DNA of 64,000 bases from an uncultured Brachyspira sp. GTDB taxonomy: Bacteria; Spirochaetota; Brachyspiria; Brachyspirales; Brachyspiraceae. A program made the translations under genes and the position numbers. The notes under the pieces were generated by a model, which was given only the letters and a program-made list of their open reading frames with translations, made no database searches and was not told the origin of the DNA. The stretch is from assembly GCF_944393015.1 (NCBI RefSeq), contig NZ_CALXYQ010000009.1:1-64000 (forward strand), read 5' to 3'. Below are positions 1,604 to 60,366 of this stretch, in pieces (positions within the stretch are counted from its first letter, which is position 1; each line of letters opens with the position of its first letter).

Positions 1604-1914
1604 CCCACCCTCTAGGCTTGATAATTTTGATTAGAATATTTTGTTTTTAATATATTTGATAATCTCATTAGAAATTTCAGCACCCCCCCAAGTTTTTTTT
1701 AAATTTGTAGCTTATACACCCGCACGCAGAGTGAAACCATAAATATAAATTAAATTATTAATAGAAATGAAATTATATATAAAAATACGTTCACCGTGCG
1801 GTTAATATACTTTAAATCTAATAAACGCTTGGGCGGGAATACTTTTTCTGAATTGGCTTTAAATGTGAATAAAGCTATTAATTGTAAATAAAGTTAACAA
1901 AAATAAGGGGCGGG
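1604..1914. repeat. Complete 311-bp palindromic repeat unit (left arm, core, right arm)
   Basis: Boxes in order: CCCACCC at 1604, a second C-rich box followed by AAG ending 1692, CGCACG at 1721-1726, CGTGCG at 1795-1800, CTTGGGCGGG at 1828-1837 and GGGGCGGG at 1907-1914. Spacings are mirror-symmetrical about position 1760 (about 83, 34, 74, 33 and 84 bases). It lies between divergent serS and the alcohol dehydrogenase gene. This copy is the cleanest single unit and matches the unit at 45054-45363 in length and order. Confidence 0.85.
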
Positions 1915-4056: not shown

Positions 4057-4611
4057 TGTATATAAACAAATATATTTTGTCAAAATAATTTTTTTAATTT
4101 AAAATATTTGCAGGGCTTTGCCCCGCACCCCAGTTCTTTTGTTGGCACAAAGAACCAAAAAGACTGCATTTTGGCTTTAATTTTATGAATTACCTTACAT
4201 TTAAGATAATTTTAGTATTATTTAGTACTAATTTTATACTTGCACTTTTTGCAACTTTTTGCGGCGGGAAAAAGTTGAATAAAAAAATTGACAAACTTAA
4301 AAATTTTTAGTATATACCTAAACAAATACAGTTTGTCAAAAATATAAATTTATTTTTGTTTTTATATATGGGGCTTTGCCCCATACCCCAGTTCTTTTAT
4401 TGGTATAAGGCACAGCCCGCCTTCGGCGAGAACCAAAAGAACTGCATTTTTAGTATAAATATAGGTTATATCATACATTTAATACATATATTTTTAATAT
4501 AAAGTTCTAGTAATTGCGTTTTTTGCAACTTTTTTGTGCGGCAAAAAAGTTGATAATAATTATATAATGTGCAGTGGTCGGCAAAATGAAATCATTTCAG
4601 TATATATAAAA
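4057..4611. repeat. Two tandem copies of a hairpin-bearing intergenic element (610-bp gap without genes)
   Basis: The gap 4055-4664 holds two related blocks, about 4057-4310 and 4311-4600. Each begins with GTATATA..AAACAAAT..TTTGTCAA, then has a GGGCTTTGCCCC hairpin followed by an ACCCCAGTTCTTTT / AGAACCAAAA..GACTGC inverted pair, then GCAACTTTTTGCGGCGGGAA / AAGTTG-type hairpins. The second copy carries an extra G+C-rich insertion at about 4409-4429 with a CGCCTTCGGCG hairpin. The border TTTTTAGTATATACCTAAAC at 4304-4323 recurs at the ends of the repeats at 38892 and 55968. No coding sequence is apparent. Confidence 0.7.
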
Positions 4612-9106: not shown

Positions 9107-9301
9107 CCCGCCCTTTAGGCTTTTTACATCGTTAAGTAATTTCTACATTATTTTTCTTTTTTGTTTCAAGCTGTTATTTTAGCTGCCCACCCAAGTTATT
9201 TTTAAATTTGTTGTGTATTAACCGCACGAAGAGCAAAATTTGAAATATATGTTAATTGTGAATTACAATTTAAATTATATAAAAAACGTATTCACCGTGC
9301 G
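9107..9301. repeat. Palindromic repeat: left arm plus core, right arm missing
   Basis: CCCGCCC at 9107, CCCACCCAAG at 9186-9195, CGCACG at 9223-9228 and CGTGCG at 9296-9301 reproduce the first two-thirds of the 310-bp unit with the usual spacing (core 79 bases). The expected right arm is absent: 21 bases after the core comes the stop codon of the leucine-rich repeat gene on the minus strand. Confidence 0.8.
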
Positions 9302-9322: not shown

Positions 9323-10432
9323 TTACATCTCAGTTATAACTACATCTGTAGGAATACCATGCTTGCCTTTTAAAGATTGATAAGCCGCAGATGCACCTGT
9401 AGGCACGTATATAGTTTTTAAAATAGTACCTTTAAAAGTATTATCTCCATTTATTGAAGGAGGATTAGCTGACAAAAATGTTATGCTTGTTAATGACTCA
9501 CAGGTAGAAAAAACAAGATCTCCAATGCTTATAACATTAGCAGGTATTGTAATAGTTGTTAATTTTCTACAATATCCAAAAGCAGAGTCCCCTATAGTTG
9601 TTAATTTTGGATTTGCACCTTCAAACACAATATTTTCAGCACCGCTGCATGCATAAAAAGCTAAATCTTCTATAGAGGTAACAGACTCTGGTATAGTTAT
9701 AGTTTTCAATCCAGAACAGCTAGTAAAAGCAGATTTAGGTATAACAATTAAATTTTTAGATAATTTCATGCTTTGTAATTGCCTGCATGCCTCAAATGCC
9801 TCTTTTCCTATACTTGTTACAGAATCAGGCATATCAATACTTTCTATAGCAGAAATTTCAAAAGCATAATCATTTATAGTTTTTAATCCATTAGGTAAAT
9901 TAATATTTTTTACTTTTGTATTATAAAAAATACTGCCTCCTATTTCTATTAAGCTTTTAGGCATATTTACTTCTGTTAAAACTTTGCAATTAAAGAATAC
10001 TTCGTTTCCCAAAATAGCTATATAATCAGGAAGAATAACTTTTGCTATATTATAATTGTCAAGAGAAGTATTTACTAATATATAATCAGGAAGTTTATTA
10101 TTTTGAAATTTCACGTTTTCAAATGACACTATTATATCTTTAATCTCATTTATTATAGTACCAAGACTGCTAGATTTATCATAATATTTTGTAGAAATAC
10201 CTTTAAATATTACTTTATATTCGCCTTTATCATTATAATATTTTTCTAATGATTCCCTTACATTTTTAGCAGTAGCAGTGTTTATTTCTATACCATATTT
10301 ATTTAATTCTTCTTCAGTTATTGGTGGTTCAGTGGTATTTCCGTTATTATCAATATTATTAGGAGACGTTACTGTTCCTCTGCATGATAAAAAAATCATA
10401 AAAGATAAAATTATTAATATTATTTTTCTCAT
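9323..10432 (-). CDS. BspA-like leucine-rich repeat lipoprotein
   Basis: About 369 residues beginning MRKIILIILSFMIFLSCRG, a lipoprotein signal with lipobox LSC. A Ser/Thr/Asn/Glu-rich linker follows, then a small domain (about 50-110), then LRR_5/BspA repeats of about 23 residues (for example SIDMPDSVTSIGKEAFEACR, TITIPESVTSIEDLAFYACS) and a C-terminal cap ending VVITEM. BspA-like proteins of oral and gut anaerobes are surface adhesins. The ATG at 10432 is preferred over a TTG at 10438. Its ribosome site is poor (AGATAA) compared with AGGAA of the paralogue upstream, so translation may be weak. It is a tandem duplicate of the broken gene at 10499-11484. Confidence 0.88.
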   Translation of the reverse strand: MRKIILIILSFMIFLSCRGTVTSPNNIDNNGNTTEPPITEEELNKYGIEINTATAKNVRESLEKYYNDKGEYKVIFKGISTKYYDKSSSLGTIINEIKDIIVSFENVKFQNNKLPDYILVNTSLDNYNIAKVILPDYIAILGNEVFFNCKVLTEVNMPKSLIEIGGSIFYNTKVKNINLPNGLKTINDYAFEISAIESIDMPDSVTSIGKEAFEACRQLQSMKLSKNLIVIPKSAFTSCSGLKTITIPESVTSIEDLAFYACSGAENIVFEGANPKLTTIGDSAFGYCRKLTTITIPANVISIGDLVFSTCESLTSITFLSANPPSINGDNTFKGTILKTIYVPTGASAAYQSLKGKHGIPTDVVITEM

Positions 10433-10444
10433 ATTCAATTATCT

Positions 10445-10504
10445 TATTTATATAACTATTCCAAATCCATAACTTTTTGAGTACGGCAATACTATAAACT
10501 ATAT
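10445..10504 (-). pseudogene. Duplicated scrap of the modA 3' end
   Basis: Two short blocks match the end of modA: 10446-10472 repeats the stop-codon region at 11500-11526 (TATTTATATAACTATTCCAA...), and 10481-10504 repeats codons for YSIAVL at about 11609-11632. The roughly 80 bases between them in modA are deleted here. The scrap supplies the stop codon (TAG at 10499-10501) of the neighbouring leucine-rich repeat gene. It shows that the duplicated unit was modA 3' end plus lipoprotein gene. Confidence 0.8.
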
Positions 10505-11484
10505 CTCGCTTATAACTACATCTGCAGAAATACCATGTTTGCCTTTTAACGATTCATAAGCTGAAGATGCCCCTCTAGGTACATATATAGTTTTTAAAGT
10601 ATTTTTAAAAATTTTATCTCCATTCATTGAAGGAGGTGTTGAAGATAAAAATGTTATACTTGTTAATGAATTACAAGGATAAAAAGCATAATCATTTATA
10701 GAAGTAATATACTTTGGTATGTTTATAGTTTTTAATGCAGGACAGTCTGAAAAAGTAAATTTATCTATAACACTTAAATTTCAGATAATTTCACACTCTG
10801 TAATTTATAACATGATGCAAATACATATTCCCCTATTCTTATTACAGAATCAGGGATATCTATATTTTCTATATCAGACATTGAGAAAGCATTATCATTT
10901 ATAATTTTTAGTCCATTAGGTAAGCTAATATTTTTTACTTTTGTATGAACAAAAATACTGATTCCTATTTCTGTTAAGCTTTTAGGCATATTAACTTCGG
11001 TTAATGATATACACTGGAAAAATACTTCGTCTCCAAAAGCAGTTATATAATCAGGAAGAATAACTTTTGTTATGTTATTATTACCAAATGAAGTACTTCC
11101 TAATATATTATCAGGAAGCTTATTATTTTGAAATTGTACATTTTTAAACGATACTGTTATATCTGTAATGTCTTTAATCTCACCTATTATAGTAGCAAGA
11201 TTAACATGTCCAGTATACATTTTTGTAGAAACGCCTTTAAATATTAATTTATATTTACCATTATCTTTAAAATATTTTTCTAATGACTCCCTTATATTTT
11301 CAGCAGTAGCAGTATCTATTTCTAAACCATATTTATTTAATTCTTCTTCTTCTGTCATTGGTGGTTCTGTAGGCTCTTCAGTGATATTTCCGCTATTATT
11401 ATCAGTATTATTAGGAGATGTTACTGATCCTCTACATGATAATAAAATCATCAAACATGAAATTATTAATATTATTTTTCTCAT
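10499..11484 (-). pseudogene. BspA-like leucine-rich repeat lipoprotein, frameshifted
   Basis: The first 236 codons (start MRKIILIISCLMILLSCRGS, lipobox LSC) run to a stop at 10774. In the intact paralogue the matching bases read AAAAATTTA; here they read GAAATTTA near 10783-10790, one base short. Restoring one A gives an open frame through NLSVIDKFTFSDCPALKTIN down to SADVVISEI and the stop at 10499. Compared with the paralogue the restored protein also lacks about 45 residues (two repeats). A good AGGAA ribosome site precedes the ATG. Either a dead gene, a phase-variable one or a sequencing error; truncated product would keep the lipid anchor and half the repeats. Confidence 0.85.
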
Positions 11485-26478: not shown

Positions 26479-26673
26479 CGCACGGTGAGCTGATTTTTAT
26501 TTATTATTAACATTATAATTCAAAAATATTCTGTATTTTAAACTTCACTTAGCGTGCGGTGATTACACTATAAATTAAAAAAAATCTTGGGTGGGCAGCT
26601 ATAAATTCTAAGTGAGCAAAAAGAAAATACTAAATTAAAATTGCATATAAAACTCATAAATCTAAAGGGCGGG
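26479..26673. repeat. Palindromic repeat: core plus right arm
   Basis: CGCACG at 26479-26484 and CGTGCG at 26553-26558 bound an 80-bp core, followed by CTTGGGTGGG at 26586-26595 and GGGCGGG at 26667-26673. The core is flipped relative to most copies (GGTGA follows the left box, CACTTAG precedes the right one). No left arm is present. Part of the 620-bp gap between scpB and the surface protein; 26674-26840 shows nothing else. Confidence 0.8.
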
Positions 26674-26987: not shown

Positions 26988-28196
26988 ATGGTAAAAAAAG
27001 TTAGCAAAAAAGTAAAGTTCCTAGCTGCTGTAATAGGTTCTTTATTAATTACAACAGTTTCAGCATTCGGTATGTATGGTGTAGACGGTGATGACTGGAT
27101 TGGATTTCTTACTCATGGAAACCAATTCAGAGCTAGAATGGACCAATTAGGTTTTGTTTTAGGCAATGGTACAATTAAAGGTACTGTCGGATTCAGATCT
27201 GATAACGGCTGGTTAGGCAGTATTTTATCATCAGAAGGAGGTGCACAAAATAATGAATCTCTTTCTTTTAACCCTACATTGTCTTTAGGTATAGGATATA
27301 CTTCTGATATGATAGGTGTTGGTATTGGATACAATTTCACTTATATAAACAGATTTATACAAGTACATACTCCTACACTTGTTCTTAATGCTTTAAATAA
27401 CAATCTAAGATTTGCAGTTCCTATACAAATAGCAGTATCAGATCAAAATGAGATTTACTCTAAAGATTTAGGATATAAGTTTACAGGTATAGGATTCAAT
27501 AATATGGAAGTTAGATATTTGACTGGAATAGATGCTTTCAATCAAATAAGAGTATATGCTTCTTATAGAAATTGGAAAATAGAAAACAAAAATATAGGCG
27601 GTCATGATTTTCTTTCAGAAGATATGCATTTACAGTTGAGATTATATTTCTTGAATACACAAATAGGAAATGTTACTATTAATCCATATATTAGAATAGA
27701 TTATGCTACAGCTTTAAGAGGCGATTTAATAGATGATAATATCACTATAATAAACAATGGTTATTTCAGCCCTAATGTTAATGGTAACAGTGGTTATGAT
27801 CGTAGCAGACCTTATGAATGGTCAACTGGAAGCGGCTACTATTCTGTAAGACCTTATAAACTTGCTATTAAACCAGTATTATCTTTGGCAGCAAACAGCG
27901 ATATAGTTTCTTTATATTTTGAACCTTCTTTAGGTTATGAATATACTTATAAGAAATTTAAATCTATTTATAATGGCGGAGAAGAAATTGTTTCTCATAA
28001 ATTAACATGGGGTGCTTATGCTGAAATGTATGTAAGACCAGTTCAAGACTTAGAATGGTACTTTGAAATGGATATTAACGGCAAATATGGAAAAACTCCT
28101 GCTGCTGCAGTTGTTGCTGAAGTTCCTGTATACTTTGAAACTACTACTGGTATAACTTGGTACTTGCCTTCACTTGGCGGAGATACTGCTCAATAA
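26988..28196 (+). CDS. Brachyspira variable surface protein (Vsp family) outer membrane protein
   Basis: A 402-residue exported protein. The signal peptide VKFLAAVIGSLLITTVSAFG is cleaved near residue 26, and the mature chain opens MYGVDGDDWIGFLTHGNQFR and ARMDQLGFVLGNGTIKGTVG, which I recognise as the Brachyspira hyodysenteriae Vsp type. The rest alternates aromatic and hydrophobic residues as in outer-membrane beta-barrels (SLGIGYTSDMIGVGIGYNF) and the C-terminus has TTTGITWYLPS. Vsp proteins are abundant surface antigens encoded by several paralogues. A strong AGGAG ribosome site, a hairpin leader and a strong terminator suggest high expression, and the T20 promoter suggests it can be switched. 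Confidence 0.85.
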   Translation: MVKKVSKKVKFLAAVIGSLLITTVSAFGMYGVDGDDWIGFLTHGNQFRARMDQLGFVLGNGTIKGTVGFRSDNGWLGSILSSEGGAQNNESLSFNPTLSLGIGYTSDMIGVGIGYNFTYINRFIQVHTPTLVLNALNNNLRFAVPIQIAVSDQNEIYSKDLGYKFTGIGFNNMEVRYLTGIDAFNQIRVYASYRNWKIENKNIGGHDFLSEDMHLQLRLYFLNTQIGNVTINPYIRIDYATALRGDLIDDNITIINNGYFSPNVNGNSGYDRSRPYEWSTGSGYYSVRPYKLAIKPVLSLAANSDIVSLYFEPSLGYEYTYKKFKSIYNGGEEIVSHKLTWGAYAEMYVRPVQDLEWYFEMDINGKYGKTPAAAVVAEVPVYFETTTGITWYLPSLGGDTAQ

Positions 28197-28385: not shown

Positions 28386-28700
28386 GGGCGGGCAGCTATA
28401 AATTCTAAGAAAACAAAAATAAAATAGAAAATTAGAATTACAAATAAAAGTTATAAGCCTAAAGGGTGGGCAAATGTAATTAATTTTTTAACTTTAATTA
28501 CATACCCCGCCCTTTCAAATTTATTGCTATATTTTGAATTTTGGTTTTAATTATCTTTAAAGCCGAATTAGAAATTAAAGCACCCGCCCAAGTTTTTATT
28601 AACTTTAAAACTTAACTAAACGCACGGTGAGCTAATTTTCATTTATTATTAACATTGTAATTTAAATATTACTCATATTTAAAACTTTACTCTGCGTGCG
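28386..28700. repeat. Palindromic repeat: right arm, left arm, core
   Basis: Boxes: GGGCGGG at 28386, GGGTGGG at 28464, CCCGCCC at 28506, CCCGCCC at 28583 (followed by AAG), CGCACG at 28621-28626 and CGTGCG at 28695-28700. The right-arm to left-arm junction (28464-28512) is itself a hairpin: GGGTGGGCAAATGTAATTAA faces TTAATTACAT..CCCCGCCC. It fills most of the 617-bp gap before mnmG; the order shows that units join head to tail. Confidence 0.85.
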
Positions 28701-38007: not shown

Positions 38008-38904
38008 ATGGAAAAAGTGCAAATAGAAAATGTTGAACTTACATTATCACATCCGGATAATTTGAATATAAAATGGACAGGACAGAATGATTTAGTAAGA
38101 CAGATAATGGCTTCTTGGCATTTAATTTCAGAAGACGATATACCTCTAAACCCTAGAATCGTAGGAAAACCAGGGGCTGGAAAAACTACTCTTTCATATT
38201 ATGTAGGAAAAGAGCTTCTTAATAGAGATGTTTATATTTTTCAATGCACTGTAGATACAAGACCGGAAGACTTAATAATTATTCCTGTAATATCTGAAAA
38301 CAATAAAATAAGTTATCATGCTTCTAGTTTGGTTACTGCTATGATAAAAGGCGGTGTAGCAATACTTGATGAAGGAAACAGAATGAGTGAGAAGACTTGG
38401 GCTTCGCTTGCTCCGCTTCTTGATGACAGAAGATATGTAGAAAGCGTAATAGCTGGAATAAAAATTAAAGCTCATCCTGATTTCAGAGTAATAGTTACTA
38501 TGAATGATGATGCCAGCACTTTTGAGCTTCCTGAATATATTCACTCACGTTTACAGCCTACAATAGAACTTCCATTTCCTGATGTTAAAGAAGAGTATGA
38601 TATATTGAAAATGAATCTTCCTTTCGCTGATGATGAGATATTAAAAATCACTGTAGGATTCTTACAAAAATCACATATTAATAATGCTTCTTTTTCTGTA
38701 AGAGATGGTATTAATATGGCTAGATATGCTATGAAACTATATAAAAGTAATATAGCATCAAGCAGAGATACAGCATTTTTAATAGCATTAAAATCCGTAC
38801 TTGGTACTGAAGGACTTAGAATATTAAGTCTTAATATGGACGATAGAGATAATAAAGATCATAGAAGAAATATGGATGATGATGACAGCACTAGTATATA
38901 CTAA
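38008..38904 (+). CDS. MoxR-like AAA ATPase
   Basis: About 298 residues. The ATG at 38008 follows AAAAAAGG and is preferred to a TTG at 37972. Walker A is GKPGAGKTT near residue 52, Walker B GGVAILDEGNRMSEKTWASL, sensor VIVTMNDD, arginine finger PEYIHSRLQPTIELPFP. MoxR ATPases act as chaperones that mature enzyme complexes, normally beside a VWA-domain gene, which is absent here. The C-terminal tail is charged (DDRDNKDHRRNMDDDDSTS), and the last three codons and stop lie inside the border of a dispersed repeat, so its natural 3' end may have been replaced. Confidence 0.85.
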   Translation: MEKVQIENVELTLSHPDNLNIKWTGQNDLVRQIMASWHLISEDDIPLNPRIVGKPGAGKTTLSYYVGKELLNRDVYIFQCTVDTRPEDLIIIPVISENNKISYHASSLVTAMIKGGVAILDEGNRMSEKTWASLAPLLDDRRYVESVIAGIKIKAHPDFRVIVTMNDDASTFELPEYIHSRLQPTIELPFPDVKEEYDILKMNLPFADDEILKITVGFLQKSHINNASFSVRDGINMARYAMKLYKSNIASSRDTAFLIALKSVLGTEGLRILSLNMDDRDNKDHRRNMDDDDSTSIY

Positions 38905-39148
38905 AAATTTTTAAGTTTGTCAACTATTCGCCATAGTGGCTTTCCGCACGGTACTGCAAATTATTATGGATAGCTAACTATACGTGCGGCTGATTACTCA
39001 TTATTGTACAAAAATTAATAAGCTATATTACAGATAAAACATATTTACTAATATTAGATAATATTTGATATTATAAAAAATAATAGTTTATATTCATAAA
39101 AAAGCAAAAATTGACAAATATAGTTGTTATAGTTGTTTAGGTATATTA
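38892..39148. repeat. 257-bp dispersed repeat, copy A (partner at 55968-56230)
   Basis: Near-identical to 55968-56230. It begins TAGTATATACTAAAAATTTT, contains CCGCACG at 38944-38950 facing CGTGCGG at 38983-38989, and ends with TTGACAAAT..TTGTTTAGGTATAT. The left end and the reverse complement of the right end share TATACTAAAAATTTT, giving short inverted termini. No ORF. It overlaps the stop codon of the MoxR-like gene. Confidence 0.8.
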
Positions 39149-41158: not shown

Positions 41159-41760
41159 CGCACGCAGAGCAAAGTTATAAATATAGTTTTATTTTTATTT
41201 CAAATTTTATTATATTACAAATTTAGTTAATCGTGCGTTGAGTAAAGCAAAAAATTTAAATAAAGCTTGGGCGGGTGCTAACAAATTCTAATTAAGCTAT
41301 AAAGACAATCAATATTAAAATTAAAAATAAAGCAATGAATTTTAAAGGGTGGGATTTAAAATAAATTTGAAAACTTATTTTTTATCAACTTTTCCCGGAC
41401 TTCGTCAAAGTTGCAAAAGTGCTAATTTTTTATAATATAAAATTTTATAAATCATTCTTAAATTTAATAAATATTTGATCTAGTGCTAAAATTTCTAATT
41501 ATCTATAAAAATTAAAAATGAAGCAGTGAATTTTAATATTTAAGTTTAAAAATTTAATTACATTTGCCCACCCTCTAGGCTTATTACTTTAATTTGCAAT
41601 TATGACTTTTTATTTCTTTGAAGTATAAACAAAATTTCTAACAACCCACCCAAGTTGTATTTAAATTTATAGTGCATTCACCGCACGCAGAGTAAAGCTA
41701 TATATACAGATTTATTTGCAATTAAAATATTATTATATTAAAAATTTTGTTCACCGTGCG
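41159..41760. repeat. Palindromic repeat cluster: core, right arm, unrelated hairpin, decayed arm, left arm, core
   Basis: CGCACG at 41159 and CGTGCG at 41232-41237; CTTGGGCGGG at 41266-41275; GGGTGGG at 41347-41353; then a CAACTTTT..AAAGTTG hairpin of the type seen near 4250 (about 41396-41413); a degenerate right arm without G boxes (about 41483-41540); CCCACCC at 41567 and at 41645 (followed by AAG); CGCACG at 41682-41687 and CGTGCG at 41755-41760. It fills the 828-bp gap between the chemoreceptor and the zinc-ribbon gene. Confidence 0.8.
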
Positions 41761-41829
41761 TAGAGTTTAACTATTATAAAAATGAATTGTTATAAAATTA
41801 GTCAGCTTTATTTTAAAAGAGGTAAAACT

Positions 41830-42954
41830 ATGCTTGAACATAAATGTGATAAATGCGGTGTAGAATTGGGTTATAAAGGTTTATGCTTTAAATGTAAGGC
41901 AGAAGAAGAAAGAAATAAAACTCTTGCTTTAACTGATGATGAAATAAAAGAGATTATCAATAAATATGTAAAAGATTTAAAAGAAAAAAATGTTGATAAA
42001 GAATTATTAAATGGCATTTACATTTATGATTTGATTGCATATAGAAATATAGATTTAAAAGATATAGCCAAAAAAGCATTAAAGAAAAAAATTTATTATC
42101 CTGAAGTATTTTATTATAAGGCAAGCGAAGAAATAAGAGATGAACTTATAAAAAGAATAAGAGCAACTAAAGATTATTCTGAAGGAGCTAATTTATTATC
42201 ATGTTTAGCTATGCAGGGAGATGATGTTGCCCTTGACTGTTTGTATGATTTTGAAATGAATCCAAGAGAATGGAGAAAGCAACTTTATGTTGATCCTTCA
42301 GTTTATGCTGAATGTGCAGGATGGACTTTTGATAAAGACAAAAAAAGACAAATACTTAATTTCGATAAATGCTATTATTTAGATAAAGCCCAAAGCAAAG
42401 AAGAAAAAGAACAAAGCCCTATTAAAATAGCTTCATTAAGAGATGATAATTGTCCTGAATGCGGATGCAGAAATATTGATATGGCTATTATTGACGGAAG
42501 AGATGAAAAACTTAAATTTATAGGTGTTGATGGAATAATAAAAGCTTCATGCTGTCCTAATTGCGTAACATACAATATAACTTATTCAAAGTATGACTTA
42601 AAAGGAGGAAGCGAGATACTTCCTCTCGATAAAGAGTCAGAAAACTATTATGCTTCTGAAGAAAATTATATAGAGGAAGAAGAATTAAATTCAATGCATA
42701 ATAATAATTATATACTTTCAAAAAATGAAGTTCCTTTGTTTTATGGTGCATTCGATGATACTTTAAATACAATAGGAGGATTTGCTAATTGGGTTCAGGA
42801 CTGGGAATATATGAAATGCCCAATCTGCGGAAAGAAAATGAAATACTTAATGCAAATTCAATGGCATACTGTTGAATCTATGGCTGAAGGTACTTTATTT
42901 ATAGAAATCTGTACTGATTGTAATATTACGGCAATGTTACACCAGCAAACTTGA
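41830..42954 (+). CDS. Zinc-ribbon protein of unknown function
   Basis: About 374 residues. The ATG at 41830 follows AGAGG and starts MLEHKCDKCGVELGYKGLCF, a short CxxC zinc finger, so it is preferred to 41782. A helical, Lys/Glu-rich region with HEAT-like character follows (70-190). The C-terminal half has further Cys pairs: NCPECGCRNIDMA, ASCCPNCV, and KCPICGKKMKYLMQIQWHTV ending EICTDCNITAMLHQQ. The last block, with GGFANWVQDWEYMKCP, recalls DUF1963/PDCD2-like folds. A cytoplasmic metal-binding protein; lies in a repeat-rich accessory stretch beside an Imm26-like gene. Confidence 0.7.
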   Translation: MLEHKCDKCGVELGYKGLCFKCKAEEERNKTLALTDDEIKEIINKYVKDLKEKNVDKELLNGIYIYDLIAYRNIDLKDIAKKALKKKIYYPEVFYYKASEEIRDELIKRIRATKDYSEGANLLSCLAMQGDDVALDCLYDFEMNPREWRKQLYVDPSVYAECAGWTFDKDKKRQILNFDKCYYLDKAQSKEEKEQSPIKIASLRDDNCPECGCRNIDMAIIDGRDEKLKFIGVDGIIKASCCPNCVTYNITYSKYDLKGGSEILPLDKESENYYASEENYIEEEELNSMHNNNYILSKNEVPLFYGAFDDTLNTIGGFANWVQDWEYMKCPICGKKMKYLMQIQWHTVESMAEGTLFIEICTDCNITAMLHQQT

Positions 42955-42956
42955 TT

Positions 42957-43454
42957 TTATTTATTACTGCTTATACGCTCTTTTATCATTGTCTCTATAT
43001 CTGTAGGAGTATAAACAATCCACTCATTATATTTATTCGTATCATATTTTTTTATTGTTTTTATTTTACCGCCTATACGCAATTTCGGATCATATTCATC
43101 ACCTAATAAAAAAGTTATTTTTGAATAATTGGAATCTCTTTCTCTATCATAATTCAATTCTTCAAAAATGAATCTCCATCTTTTTTTAGTGAATGCCATT
43201 GATATATGCAGCGGCTCAAACATAAGTCCTGATTTAATTATATCATCTTTATCATTAGGAATATTACCTGTATAATTAAATATTTCGATTAAATCACCTC
43301 CAGATTTATCAATTTCAATTAGTCTTCCAAAAGCGTAATTTTCTTCAGAAGTAAAATTTGTTTTTGAATAGCTTTTAATATTATCTTTTATATCATTTGG
43401 TAAAAACAATGGAATAAAAAATATATTGCCTTCTTTTTTTTCAAAATATTTCAT
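42957..43454 (-). CDS. Imm26-like immunity protein (orphan)
   Basis: A 165-residue cytoplasmic protein. The opening FEKKEGNIFFIPLFLP, the ENYAFGRLIEIDKSGGDLIE strand pair and IFNYTG resemble the Imm26 family, immunity proteins that neutralise secreted polymorphic toxins and share the pattern GDIFAIPL..GRV. The C-terminal third (RIGGKIKTIKKYDTNKYNEW) fits the same beta-rich fold. No toxin is adjacent; the only toxin in view is at 50604, about 7 kb away. It is convergent with the zinc-ribbon gene with only 2 bases between stop codons. An orphan immunity gene would protect against toxins of competitors. Confidence 0.5.
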   Translation of the reverse strand: MKYFEKKEGNIFFIPLFLPNDIKDNIKSYSKTNFTSEENYAFGRLIEIDKSGGDLIEIFNYTGNIPNDKDDIIKSGLMFEPLHISMAFTKKRWRFIFEELNYDRERDSNYSKITFLLGDEYDPKLRIGGKIKTIKKYDTNKYNEWIVYTPTDIETMIKERISSNK

Positions 43455-43545: not shown

Positions 43546-43733
43546 CGTGCGTTGAGTAAAGCAAAAAATTTAAATAAAGCTTGGGTGGGTGCTAACAAAT
43601 CATAATTAAGCTATAAATATAATTAATATTAGAATTCAAAATAAAGCAATAAACTTTAAAGGGCGGGCTTTTAAATAAATTTGAAAAATTATTTTTTATC
43701 AACTTTTCCAGTGGAAAAAGTTGCAAAAGCACA
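43546..43733. repeat. Palindromic repeat: half core and right arm, followed by a hairpin
   Basis: CGTGCG at 43546-43551 without its partner, CTTGGGTGGG ending 43589, GGGCGGG at 43661-43667, then the hairpin AACTTTTCCA / GGAAAAAGTT at about 43701-43722. The same order (right arm, then AACTTTT hairpin) is found at 41347-41413. Part of a 742-bp gap with no gene (43455-44196). Confidence 0.75.
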
Positions 43734-43855
43734 TTTTATAATTAAAAATACATTTTAAAATCATGTTATAATCTGCTATTTTTACAAATATAAAAATACT
43801 ATTATAAATAAATTCAAAATCTTATTATATTTTAATTTAGTTCATCGTGAGTTAA

Positions 43856-44191
43856 GTAAGCAAAAAATTTAATTACCGCTTGGGCGGGTGCTAACAAATC
43901 ATAATTAAGCTATAAATATAATTAATATTAGAATTCAAAATAAAGCAATAAACTTTAAGGGGGGATGTAAATAAAGTTTTAAAACTTATTTACATTTGCC
44001 CACCCTTTATCTTTATTGATACAATTTACAATTATGATTTTTTATTTCTTTGGTGTTTAAAAGAAATTGTTAACGCCCACCCAAGATTTTTTTAAATTTA
44101 TAGTGCATTCACCGCACGGAGAATAAAGCTAAATATATAGATTTATTTGAAATTTAAATTTTATCGTATTGTTAATTTTGTTTACCGTGCG
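43856..44191. repeat. Palindromic repeat: half core, right arm, left arm, core
   Basis: A decayed CGTGAG at 43856, CTTGGGCGGG at 43879-43888, a G6 box at 43959-43964, CCCACCC at 43999 and 44076 (followed by AAG), CGCACG at 44113-44118 and CGTGCG at 44186-44191. The core ends 5 bases before the stop codon of the minus-strand TPR gene. Confidence 0.8.
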
Positions 44192-45053: not shown

Positions 45054-45639
45054 CCTACCCTCTATGCTTATTATTTTTATTTGAAATTATGACTTTTTAT
45101 TTCTTTGATGTTTAAAAGAAATTGTTAACGCCCACCCAAGATTTTTTTAAATTTATAATGCATTCACCGCACGCAGAATAAAACTAAATATATAGATTCA
45201 TTTGAAATTTAAATTTATCATATTGTTAATTTTTTTTTTACCGTGCGTTAAATAAATTTTAAATCTAATCAACATTTGGGCGGGTGCTAACAAATCATAA
45301 TTAAGCTATAAATATAATTAATATTAGAATTCAAAATAAAGCAGTAAATTTAGAAGGGCGGGGTATGTAAATAAAGTTTTAAAACTTATTTACATTTGCC
45401 CACCCTTTAGACTTATTACTTTAATTTGCAATTATGATTTTTTATTTCTTTGAAGTATAAACAGAATTTCTAACAACCCACCCAAGTTATATTTAAAATT
45501 ATAGTGCATTCACCGCACGCAGAGTAAAGCTATAAATATAGCTTTATTGGCAATTTAAATTTTATTATATTAAGAATTTAGTTTACCGTGCGTTAAATAA
45601 TTTTTAAATCTAATCAAAACTTGGATGGGTACTGAAATT
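45054..45639. repeat. Two tandem palindromic repeat units (310 bp each, second one decayed at its end)
   Basis: First unit: CCTACCC at 45054, CCCACCC at 45131, CGCACG at 45168, CGTGCG at 45242, GGGCGGG at 45278, GGGCGGGG at 45356-45363. Second unit: CCCACCC at 45399 and 45477, CGCACG at 45514, CGTGCG at 45597 and a decayed TTGGATGGG at 45631-45639. The junction 45356-45405 is a long hairpin (GTAAATAAAGTTTT facing AAAACTTATTTAC). It occupies the 710-bp gap 44974-45683 upstream of the TPR gene; a relic of the 32877-type element follows at 45666. Confidence 0.88.
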
Positions 45640-45683
45640 TATAATTATGAGTTTTAAAGTGATAAACGAGCAACAATAATAAA

Positions 45684-46373
45684 TTAAATATACTTGCTTG
45701 CTTCTTTGATGCTTAGATTAGCCAAGTTTTTCTTGTGCCTCTCTATAAAATCACGAACCCAATCAGGATTAGTTTTACTATAATCCCTTAAAGACCAGCC
45801 TATTGCTTTGTTTATAAAAAACTCTTTGTTGTTTAGATTATTTATGATTATTTTTTCTAATAATTCAGTATTCGTTTTATCTTTTCTTAAAAGCTGATGA
45901 TCTATAGCTATTCGCCTAAGCCAAATATTATCAGATAAAGACCATTCTAAAAGTATATTATTGACAGACTCATCTCTTAAAGCAATTGCTCCAATTATCC
46001 TGTCCAAACAATCTATGCTATCCCACCAAGATTTTGTAAAAGCATATTCTTTTAATTTTTCTATATGAGTTTTATTTAAATATTTCTTTTTTGAATTTAA
46101 GTAGTCTAAAGCAGAATATTGAAATTCTCTGTATTTATTCTCATAGCATTTATCTGTAAAATAAAAATCAATAAACTCTTTTTCATTTTTTGGAATAGTT
46201 TTAAATACTTTTTTCTGAGCTTCTTTTCTCTCTTTTGAATGAATACCTAAAAACTCAAAATTGTTTTTCATGTACTTAGCCATTGGTATAGCTTCTTTAT
46301 CATTTTTTAGAATATCAAATTCTACTGAAAGATTATTATATAAATTATTAACTTTGTATTTTATATAATCCAT
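45684..46373 (-). CDS. AlkD-like DNA alkylation repair protein
   Basis: About 229 residues, helical HEAT-like repeats of the AlkD family of DNA glycosylases that excise alkylated bases. Seen: KNNFEFLGIHSKERKEAQ near the N-terminus, YREFQYSALDYLN, the pair TKSWWDSIDCLDRIIGAIAL, SDNIWLRRIAIDHQLL, and the C-terminal FINKAIGWSLRDYSKTNPDW, all family signatures including the DNA-contacting Trp and Asp/Arg positions. The ATG at 46373 is preferred to TTG at 46382. It overlaps the ABC ATPase gene by 26 bases, ending the seven-gene operon. A truncated second copy lies at 51841. Confidence 0.88.
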   Translation of the reverse strand: MDYIKYKVNNLYNNLSVEFDILKNDKEAIPMAKYMKNNFEFLGIHSKERKEAQKKVFKTIPKNEKEFIDFYFTDKCYENKYREFQYSALDYLNSKKKYLNKTHIEKLKEYAFTKSWWDSIDCLDRIIGAIALRDESVNNILLEWSLSDNIWLRRIAIDHQLLRKDKTNTELLEKIIINNLNNKEFFINKAIGWSLRDYSKTNPDWVRDFIERHKKNLANLSIKEASKYI

Positions 46374-51840: not shown

Positions 51841-52017
51841 TTATATATAAAAATAATACTTACAATATGTTTTAAATATTTTCTGCCAATTTCTCTCTTT
51901 TGAATGAATACCTAAAAACTCAAAATTGTTTTTCATATATTTAGCCATGAAAATAGCTTCTTTTTCATTTTTTAATTTTTCAAATTCTCTTGAAAGAATA
52001 TTATATAAATCACTCAT
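51841..52017 (-). pseudogene. Truncated alkD remnant
   Basis: ATG at 52017 opens a 58-codon frame MSDLYNILSREFEKLKNEKE, AIFMAKYMKNNFEFLGIHSK, then ERNWQKIFKTYCK and a stop. It aligns with the first about 55 residues of the intact AlkD-like gene at 45684-46373; around 51894-51940 the two DNA sequences are identical for more than 40 bases. The rest of the gene is gone and the toxin operon promoter begins 50 bases on. It starts 17 bases after the AllD-like gene stop, so an allD-alkD pair was probably the ancestral layout. Confidence 0.85.
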
Positions 52018-52034
52018 TTAATAAAGCCTAAAAT

Positions 52035-55889: not shown

Positions 55890-55967
55890 TTGCAACAAAT
55901 TAATTATTTATAATTAATTTGTTATTTTAGTATTTTCATTGATTGGTTTTTATTATTTTCTTGATTT

Positions 55968-56230
55968 TAGTATATACTAAAAATTTTTAACTTTGTCAAC
56001 TATTTGCCATAGGGGCTTTCCGCACGGTACTGCAAATTATTATGGATAGCTAACTATACGTGCGGCTGATTACTTATTATTGTGTAAAAATCAATAATTT
56101 ATATTACATATAAAACATATTTAGCCAATATAAAATAATATTTTATATTATAAAAAATATTATTTACATTCATAAAAAAGCAAAAATTGACAAAATGTAA
56201 TTGTTTAGGTATATACTGAAAATTTTTAGT
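55968..56230. repeat. 263-bp dispersed repeat, copy B (partner at 38892-39148)
   Basis: Starts TAGTATATACTAAAAATTTT like copy A and ends GTATATACTGAAAATTTT followed by TAGTATA, so the inverted termini are more complete here. The inner CCGCACG (56020-56026) and CGTGCGG (56059-56065) face each other 32 bases apart. Identity with copy A is high across most of its length. No ORF. It ends 6 bases before the stop codon of the small FeoB-associated-type gene. Confidence 0.8.
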
Positions 56231-58750: not shown

Positions 58751-58867
58751 CCCATGCTAAGCAAAACAAAAAATATAATCAATATTAAAATTATACTTTC
58801 AATAAAAAACAATATTGTATAAAACATGCGTTAATCAAAGCTATAAATTTAAAAAAACTTGGGCGGG
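58751..58867. repeat. Palindromic repeat: variant core and start of right arm
   Basis: CCCATG at 58751-58756 and CATGCG at 58825-58830 bound an 80-base core of the variant type (CATG instead of CACG/CGTG, one mismatch in the pair), then CTTGGGCGGG ending 58867. The right arm is cut short. The 100 bases up to the right box closely match 59944-60060, so the gene 58998-59930 is flanked by direct repeats. The gap 58580-58997 holds nothing else. Confidence 0.7.
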
Positions 58868-59942: not shown

Positions 59943-60366
59943 CGCATGTTAATAAAAACAAAAAATATAAAAAAATTAAAATTACACTTAAAATAAAAAA
60001 CAATATTATATAAAACATGCGTTAAGTAAATCTATAAATTTAAAAAATCTTGGGCGGGCATCTTTTTTTCTTAATTAAGCAAAAAATTTAAATAAAATAT
60101 TATATTACAAAATAGATAATAAACCTAAAGGGCGGGGTATGTAATTTAAGTTTTAAAATTTAATTACAACCCCACCCTCTATATTTTAAATATTAATCTG
60201 CAATATAAATTTTTATTTTCTTGCTGCCAAATTAGAATTTGTTAGCACCCACCCAAGCAGATATTTAAATTTATAGCATATACAACGCACGATTAACTAA
60301 ACTTAAATATTATAAAAAATTCATAATTATAATTTTTATTATATTAAAAATTCAGTTCACCGTGCG
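59943..60366. repeat. Palindromic repeat: variant core, right arm, left arm, standard core
   Basis: CGCATG at 59943-59948 faces CATGCG at 60016-60021 (79-base core with a compensated base change), then GGGCGGG at 60052-60058, GGGCGGGG at 60130-60137, CCCCACCC at 60170-60177, CCCACCC at 60248 (followed by AAGC), CGCACG at 60286-60291 and CGTGCG at 60361-60366. The right/left junction forms a hairpin at 60130-60177. It ends 9 bases before the creD stop codon. Confidence 0.85.

Follow-up and report, generated by a model that had tools for sequence, protein, structure and literature searches.

Spaced G/C-rich box arrays concentrated around parS in Brachyspira chromosomes: candidate protein-binding sites of the origin domain

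Introduction

In Escherichia coli, the MaoP/maoS (Ori macrodomain) and MatP/matS (Ter macrodomain) systems are site-specific systems that give a chromosome region its properties. The matS sites are many and dispersed, while maoS and MaoP reportedly act in the Ori region. In Bacillus subtilis, the RacA protein acts on ram sites, which have been called centromere-like and are dense near the origin (PMC6593407). Among the dispersed repeats of bacteria, REPs, 20–40 bp long (PMC3733652), are associated with RAYTs (PMC3116915). Such palindromes commonly occur as inverted doublets.

The repeat analysed here lies in a 64,000-nt stretch of DNA (the window), which is part of a 3.44-Mb Brachyspira genome (G000). 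Like the ram sites of B. subtilis, the Brachyspira repeats are concentrated around the replication origin; unlike ram, the sites are built into a six-box unit of ~345 bp with fixed spacing. To our knowledge, the ram and Brachyspira box sequences are unrelated, and we know of no sporulation in the genus Brachyspira. The repeat would likewise belong to a site-specific system such as MaoP/maoS and MatP/matS, but matS lies in the E. coli terminus, and neither maoS nor matS forms palindromic units capable of tandem arrangement. As in REP, BIME and REPIN elements, the copies are dispersed, intergenic, palindromic, modular and numerous (15–113 exact B-C-C' matches per genome, in the box notation given below), whereas the ~345-bp unit, the lack of a Y1 transposase in the genus, the unconserved spacers and the origin-centred distribution set them apart from REPs and REPINs. 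With MITEs the repeat shares shortness, non-coding content and an inverted-repeat organisation, but it has no terminal inverted repeats with target duplication and forms no near-identical dispersed family.

Results

Architecture of the repeat unit

The unit consists of six G/C-rich boxes in mirror order, embedded at fixed distances in DNA of 27% G+C (Table 1). As read by script and directly in the window sequence, the first half comprises A (CCCRCCC), a distance of 78 bp, B (CCCRCCCAAG), 37 bp and C (CGCACG). After 73–75 bp from C, the second half follows with C' (CGTGCG), 33–34 bp, B' (CTTGGGYGGG), 78 bp and A' (GGGYGGG), and a further 41–44 bp lead to the next A. Two half-units, A-B-C and C'-B'-A', make up the unit as an inverted pair, and copies occur whole, in tandem or truncated. 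Among isolated forms, A-B-C-C' (or its mirror) is the most frequent, followed by C-C'-B'-A'-A-B-C-C' and then by the full A-B-C-C'-B'-A'. The boxes, 6–10 bp long, are not themselves hairpins. The window contains 14 copies of CTTGGGYGGG where 0.01 would be expected, a count reached by 0 of 100 shuffles. Across the G000 genome there are 138, against 5 for the backward-read control pattern.

In 1.62 Mb of sequence pooled from several genomes, start-to-start distances are mostly 73–75 bp for C-C', 76–79 bp for A-B, 36–38 bp for B-C and 41–44 bp for A'-A; across copies, C-C' measures 73.9 ± 1.0 bp (n = 655 raw matches) and B-C 36.9 ± 1.1 bp. The symmetrical six-box order that a sequence-only reading of this DNA had described is borne out by both the script and the sequence, and the near-constant spacing reported there is far from random. 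The length of 310 bp given in that reading holds as the A-to-A' distance and not as the period, which is ~345 bp (338–345). Tandem units, also proposed there, are present as ~1.7 periods at 45054..45640 and, in two other Brachyspira records, as near-identical full units of 338 bp (L150) and as an array of 343 bp (L158).

All ten places listed in the sequence-only reading carry the repeat, as found by script and by reading the sequence, although several copies are partial or degenerate (B at 1688, A at 45054, and 58751-58867). Its '89-base' core at 45514-45602 is an error: CGTGCG starts at 45587, and this core has 79 bases, like the others. The boxes of 45054..45640 read (A degenerate CCTACCC)-B-C-C'-(B' degenerate TTTGGGCGGG)-A'-A-B-C-C'-(B' degenerate CTTGGATGGG).

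Table 1 Repeat units and associated features in the 64,000-nt window.
Feature	Position	Strand	Context or basis
Unit A-(B degenerate CCCCCCCAAG at 1688)-C-C'-B'-A'	1604..1914	.	Between divergent seryl-tRNA synthetase and alcohol dehydrogenase genes
Unit A-B-C-C'	9107..9301	.	Between convergent MatE gene and BspA-type LRR gene
Unit C-C'-B'-A'	26479..26673	.	Directly after the hairpin that follows scpB
Variable surface protein (vsp) gene (Serpulina_VSP, PF05540)	26988..28196	+	Between direct B'-A' half-units
Unit B'-A'-A-B-C-C'	28386..28700	.	Between vsp gene and mnmG
MITE, ~240 bp, two copies 94% identical	38892-39135, 55966-56230 (fragment 4282-4340)
Unit C-C'-B'-A'	41159..41353	.	Box positions
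Unit A-B-C-C'	41567..41760	.	Box positions
Partial unit C'-B'-A'	43546..43667	.	Box positions
Unit B'-(A' degenerate)-A-B-C-C'	43879..44191	.	Box positions
~1.7 tandem periods, A-to-A distance 345 bp	45054..45640	.	Box positions
Degenerate unit, B' alone intact	58751..58867	.	Box positions
Unit (degenerate C-C')-B'-A'-A-B-C-C'	59943..60366	.	Fills the gap between two convergent gene ends

At two places, 41390-41420 and 43700-43735, the usual 42-bp gap that separates A' from the boxes of the next unit is widened by a small palindrome (CAACTTTTCC...GTTGCAAAAG). Between repeat units of the same region, an Imm26-family immunity gene (42957-43454) adjoins an orphan ORF of 390 aa (41782-42954); the two possibly form a toxin-immunity pair, or the immunity gene is an orphan.

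Conservation of the boxes and drift of the spacers

Orthologous units were compared between G000 and G009, taken as B. intermedia PWS/A, with which G000 is ~95% identical and syntenic. The G000 copies were examined in stretches of that genome. Boxes were located in G000, requiring at least three exact boxes and at most two mismatches in the others, which gave 34 units. Between the two genomes, 16 of 840 box G/C sites are changed (1.9%), against 260 of 1058 spacer G/C sites (24.6%); the G/C difference in other intergenic DNA is 9.6–11%, about 10%. Measured against this 10% rate, the conservation of box G/C is significant at p=6e-21. The selection of units by at least three exact boxes in one genome lowers the expected box change at most ~2-fold, and the effect remains. 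The neutral G+C of Brachyspira is below 10% at synonymous third positions (PMC3163572), so that unselected G/C boxes should decay.

Spacer identity, both left against right and copy against copy, is 0.66–0.68 versus 0.64 when shuffled, which is near saturation, and the copies are therefore old; only tandem neighbours are near-identical in sequence. Indel events in spacers, at 15.3 per kb, are not far below the 19.6 per kb seen elsewhere, so the main evidence for a constraint on spacing is the narrow range of distances from copy to copy. Purifying selection maintains the boxes where they lie, with neutral DNA in between, a pattern unlike that of a transposon family.

The variable base (R or Y) follows a pattern of its own. 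Of 79 distinct A'-A junctions, 71 join half-units of opposite type, and the GGGCGGG/CCCGCCC combination is never seen (p=5e-15). The core arms are likewise mostly of unlike type (CGCACGCAG opposite CGCACGGT; 141 seen vs 86 expected). Among orthologous sites the variable base has changed in 15 of 80, but in 0 of 20 at A'-A junctions. The junction thus either avoids a perfect inner palindrome or needs a heterotypic pair. A replication-strand bias in half-unit polarity is weak where R/Y bases are concerned (odds 2.0, p=0.003, with boxes that are not independent) and absent from the core arms, and at best explains the junction heterotypy partly; half-unit polarity shows no transcription-strand bias. 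On folding, the A'-A junction gives a strong hairpin (z about -4.8).

Taxonomic range and comparison with mobile elements

A search of Brachyspira genomes, as proposed in the sequence-only reading, places the family genus-wide: the B-C-C' pattern is present in 23 of 26 genomes, with 15–113 exact copies each and 0 for the reversed control. The pattern is found in 0 of 270 other Spirochaetota genomes (137 genera). The three Brachyspira genomes without the repeat are the deepest-branching and the most distant by MnmG (81–85% identity), and box B' is nearly absent from them (0, 2 and 1 matches). Because these most distant members lack the repeat and almost all B', the family arose or expanded after that split. 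Among the matches listed in a scan of 84,980 species are Brachyspira (B. hampsonii, B. innocens, B. alvinipulli, B. pilosicoli and others) together with two matches in Rhodobacteraceae and Rhodocyclaceae bins, which were taken for chance. Plasmid and phage records contain no match to the repeat, and a single viral-contig match, in a G/C-rich phage, was judged to be chance. No Rfam family matches the repeat, and no description of it was found in the Brachyspira genome papers searched or in full-text searches of literature outside subscription; the suggestion that the family is perhaps undescribed agrees with both results.

The dispersed, intergenic and modular inverted-repeat organisation, the differences in copy number and presence between close species and the tandem amplification in L150 and L158 would all suit a non-autonomous mobile element of REPIN- or MITE-like type, whose mover is lost or unrecognised, with the boxes as transposase recognition ends and the copies as its remains. 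Such an origin appears unlikely. The Y1_Tnp domain (PF01797) has 0 matches in the 26 Brachyspira genomes, with positive controls, and membership in the REP/BIME-RAYT family, the analogy drawn in the sequence-only reading, is not supported within this genus. Its second analogy, to MITEs, lacks support as well: the G000/G009 comparison, which covers one close pair and the mnmG locus, displays losses and replacements of modules but no clean empty site or target duplication, although for an unrelated MITE of this window G009 does show a clean empty site. Copies left by recent transposition are nearly identical; here the spacers are saturated between copies, and no young, near-identical dispersed copies are seen. 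The conservation of boxes in place between orthologs and the lack of plasmid and phage matches, the sole viral-contig match having been judged chance, also argue against mobility.

The MITE of the window is distinct from the six-box repeat. It ends in TATAC/GTATA and contains an inner CGCACGG..CGTGCG palindrome; its clean empty site in G009 lies at a TA-rich target, and it resembles a MITE of the IS630/Tc1 type. To this element, and not to the repeat, belong the CGCACG/CGTGCG pairs at 38945/38983 and 56021/56059, which are spaced by 38 bp.

Position relative to parS and the replication origin

Along complete chromosomes the loci are non-uniformly distributed (Rayleigh p<1e-10 in G004, G007, G009 and G010, the last taken as B. 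murdochii 56-150; PMC3163572). Within 0.5 Mb of parS lie 55 of 75 loci in G009 (22.7 expected), 39 of 50 in G007 (16.4 expected), 27 of 30 in G010 (9.3 expected) and 46 of 58 in G004 (18.2 expected). The excess near parS in these four genomes is ~2.4–2.9-fold, falling with distance (p 2e-14 to 8e-11). G011 points weakly in the same direction, with 11 of 28 loci within 0.25 Mb of parS against 5.5 expected (p=0.013). Expressed per intergenic kb, density is 6–15 times higher within 0.6 Mb of parS. This measure replaced control words, which served poorly: TTGACAAA contains a promoter hexamer and trends to the pole, and GGAAAAGTTGA is too rare. The strand polarity of units shows no relation to parS. 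The dispersal proposed in the sequence-only reading is confirmed; the origin-centred distribution was not foreseen there.

The centre of the repeat cloud is a cluster of parS-like sites and not dnaA. For the PWS/A sequence file, the authors chose the GC-skew origin, to which dnaA is not linked, as base 1 (PMC3163572), and parS lies 15 kb from that base. By synteny, the window is located ~0.16–0.23 Mb from parS. To place the origin we relied on parS together with the skew origin from the literature, since GC skew computed on sampled 20-kb stretches was too noisy. A cluster centred on the terminus, as the position opposite dnaA in G010 had suggested, was reversed by parS and the skew origin (PMC3163572). 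A ParB gene is present in all five genomes and is not adjacent to parS, which in G010 lies at ~1.59 Mb.

In records from two species, L245:14726-16033 and L250:8521-9242, two to three parS-like sites lie by tetrapyrrole-methylase and TonB-domain genes, far from both parB and dnaA. The parS-like sites beside these genes are an independent marker of the Brachyspira origin region. The boxes were also considered as parS, the sites of ParB (TGTTTCACGTGAAACA consensus), and rejected: they are unrelated to it, and the few parS sites lie separately.

The origin cloud could have a historical cause, if the repeat spread outwards from one founding copy close to the origin while rearrangements stayed symmetric around it. 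It could also reflect relaxed insertion near the origin; the intergenic fraction rises somewhat toward the pole in G004.

Gene context

Unit centres fall inside an ORF of at least 100 aa in 0 of 172 cases, in keeping with the description of a dispersed, modular, dyad-symmetric, intergenic repeat without an ORF. The flanking genes are divergent in 32 cases, tandem in 72 and convergent in 50, and units abut gene ends and terminator hairpins. The ~2-fold enrichment between convergent genes (p=4e-4), these contacts with gene ends and the strong A'-A hairpin would be expected of a cis-acting regulatory or transcription-end element working on the flanking genes, such as a bidirectional terminator, a supercoil buffer or a BIME-like gyrase site. 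We consider this role quite unlikely. Divergent pairs hold 21% of units, no less than expected, and the commonest isolated form, A-B-C-C', has no A'-A hairpin. The left and right arms show no covariation, the pairing of spacers within a unit equalling that between units, near the shuffled level, and a cis role would leave the origin-centred gradient unexplained. The conservation of the boxes, taken by itself, could come from cis effects on neighbouring genes.

Turnover of the units

Modules are gained or lost between close species: of the 22 sites that can be compared between G000 and G009, 12 agree and the remaining 10 vary in length or content. The G009 counterpart of 1604..1914 keeps C-C'-B'-A', with A-B replaced by a 400-bp unique sequence. 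At the locus of 9107..9301, G009 has a lone B'-A' half-unit and is without the BspA-type LRR genes (window 9323-11484). Between scpB and mnmG, the window has the vsp gene between two direct B'-A' half-units, and G009 has a single half-unit and no vsp; read by eye, this half-unit is a chimera of the left part of one window half-unit and the right part of the other. The vsp gene was gained or lost by recombination between the half-units. About 15 species have the repeat in one form or another upstream of mnmG, even with a different neighbouring gene.

The vsp event, with its chimera left in G009, and the variable LRR genes beside a unit recall recombination or cassette-exchange sites that shuffle surface-protein genes, a function that is very unlikely here: of the 66 ends of indels or rearrangements counted over ~190 kb, only 13 are close to a repeat, a share below the 22–35% expected for random intergenic positions, the half-units at vsp are only 82% identical, and no associated recombinase was found. 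Despite the one clear vsp event, the same count, not above the intergenic background, led to the rejection of units as rearrangement hot-spots, and recombination at units looks like a by-product. Elsewhere in the window, direct repeats of 130 bp (86%) at 46225-46354 and 51890-52019 bound a 5.5-kb segment that includes an ABC-transporter gene and is missing from B. intermedia. A structured RNA from the whole palindrome is highly improbable: unit 1590-1925 folds better than shuffles (z=-3.7), but the complementarity stems from the boxes, spacers pair no better within than between units, and Rfam gives no match.

Discussion

Box identity and spacing are conserved while the filling drifts, and the units lie between genes in every orientation, concentrated around parS and the skew origin. 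We give about an even chance to the reading that these are ancient, Brachyspira-specific arrays of spaced G/C boxes, stationary and selected for their boxes, which are predicted to be protein-binding sites acting on the origin domain. The protein, its helical phasing and its function are what we infer from this pattern, while the selection on the boxes and their location relative to parS are findings. Since words and distances are conserved, the filling is neutral, and the units occur on both strands, in all gene contexts and along an origin-centred gradient, the boxes are best read as double-strand sites for a nucleoid protein.

In the proposed mechanism, the boxes would be phased double-strand sites, bound by at least one DNA-binding protein able to oligomerise along the array. 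From the distances between box centres, A, C, C' and A' lie near one helical face (10.9, 7.0 and 4.0 turns), with B offset by about half a turn (3.5); the phasing is suggestive only, and would suit a protein bridging along the array. The bound protein may compact the origin domain, anchor it or mark it for segregation; the nearest known parallel in mode of action is RacA at its ram sites. Similar copies would occasionally serve as substrates of homologous recombination, which could give rise to tandem arrays and truncated copies and to the removal or addition of a neighbouring gene.

Somewhat short of an even chance, the arrays may be regarded as a pericentromere-like bacterial satellite, specific to this genus and previously undescribed, with phased G/C boxes spread over ~1 Mb around parS and a predicted protein that builds the origin domain. 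We suggest, equally tentatively, that this protein would act alongside ParB-parS yet be distinct from it.

The organisation of spirochete chromosomes is little known, and the Brachyspira origin had been placed away from dnaA on skew alone. The parS sites and the repeat cloud independently mark one place as the origin region. The family also serves as a caution that dispersed palindromic repeats of bacteria need not be transposon remnants. If the boxes bind protein, box DNA could be used as bait for that protein, and the repeat would provide a natural, highly replicated, centromere-associated array in which the building of an origin domain can be studied.
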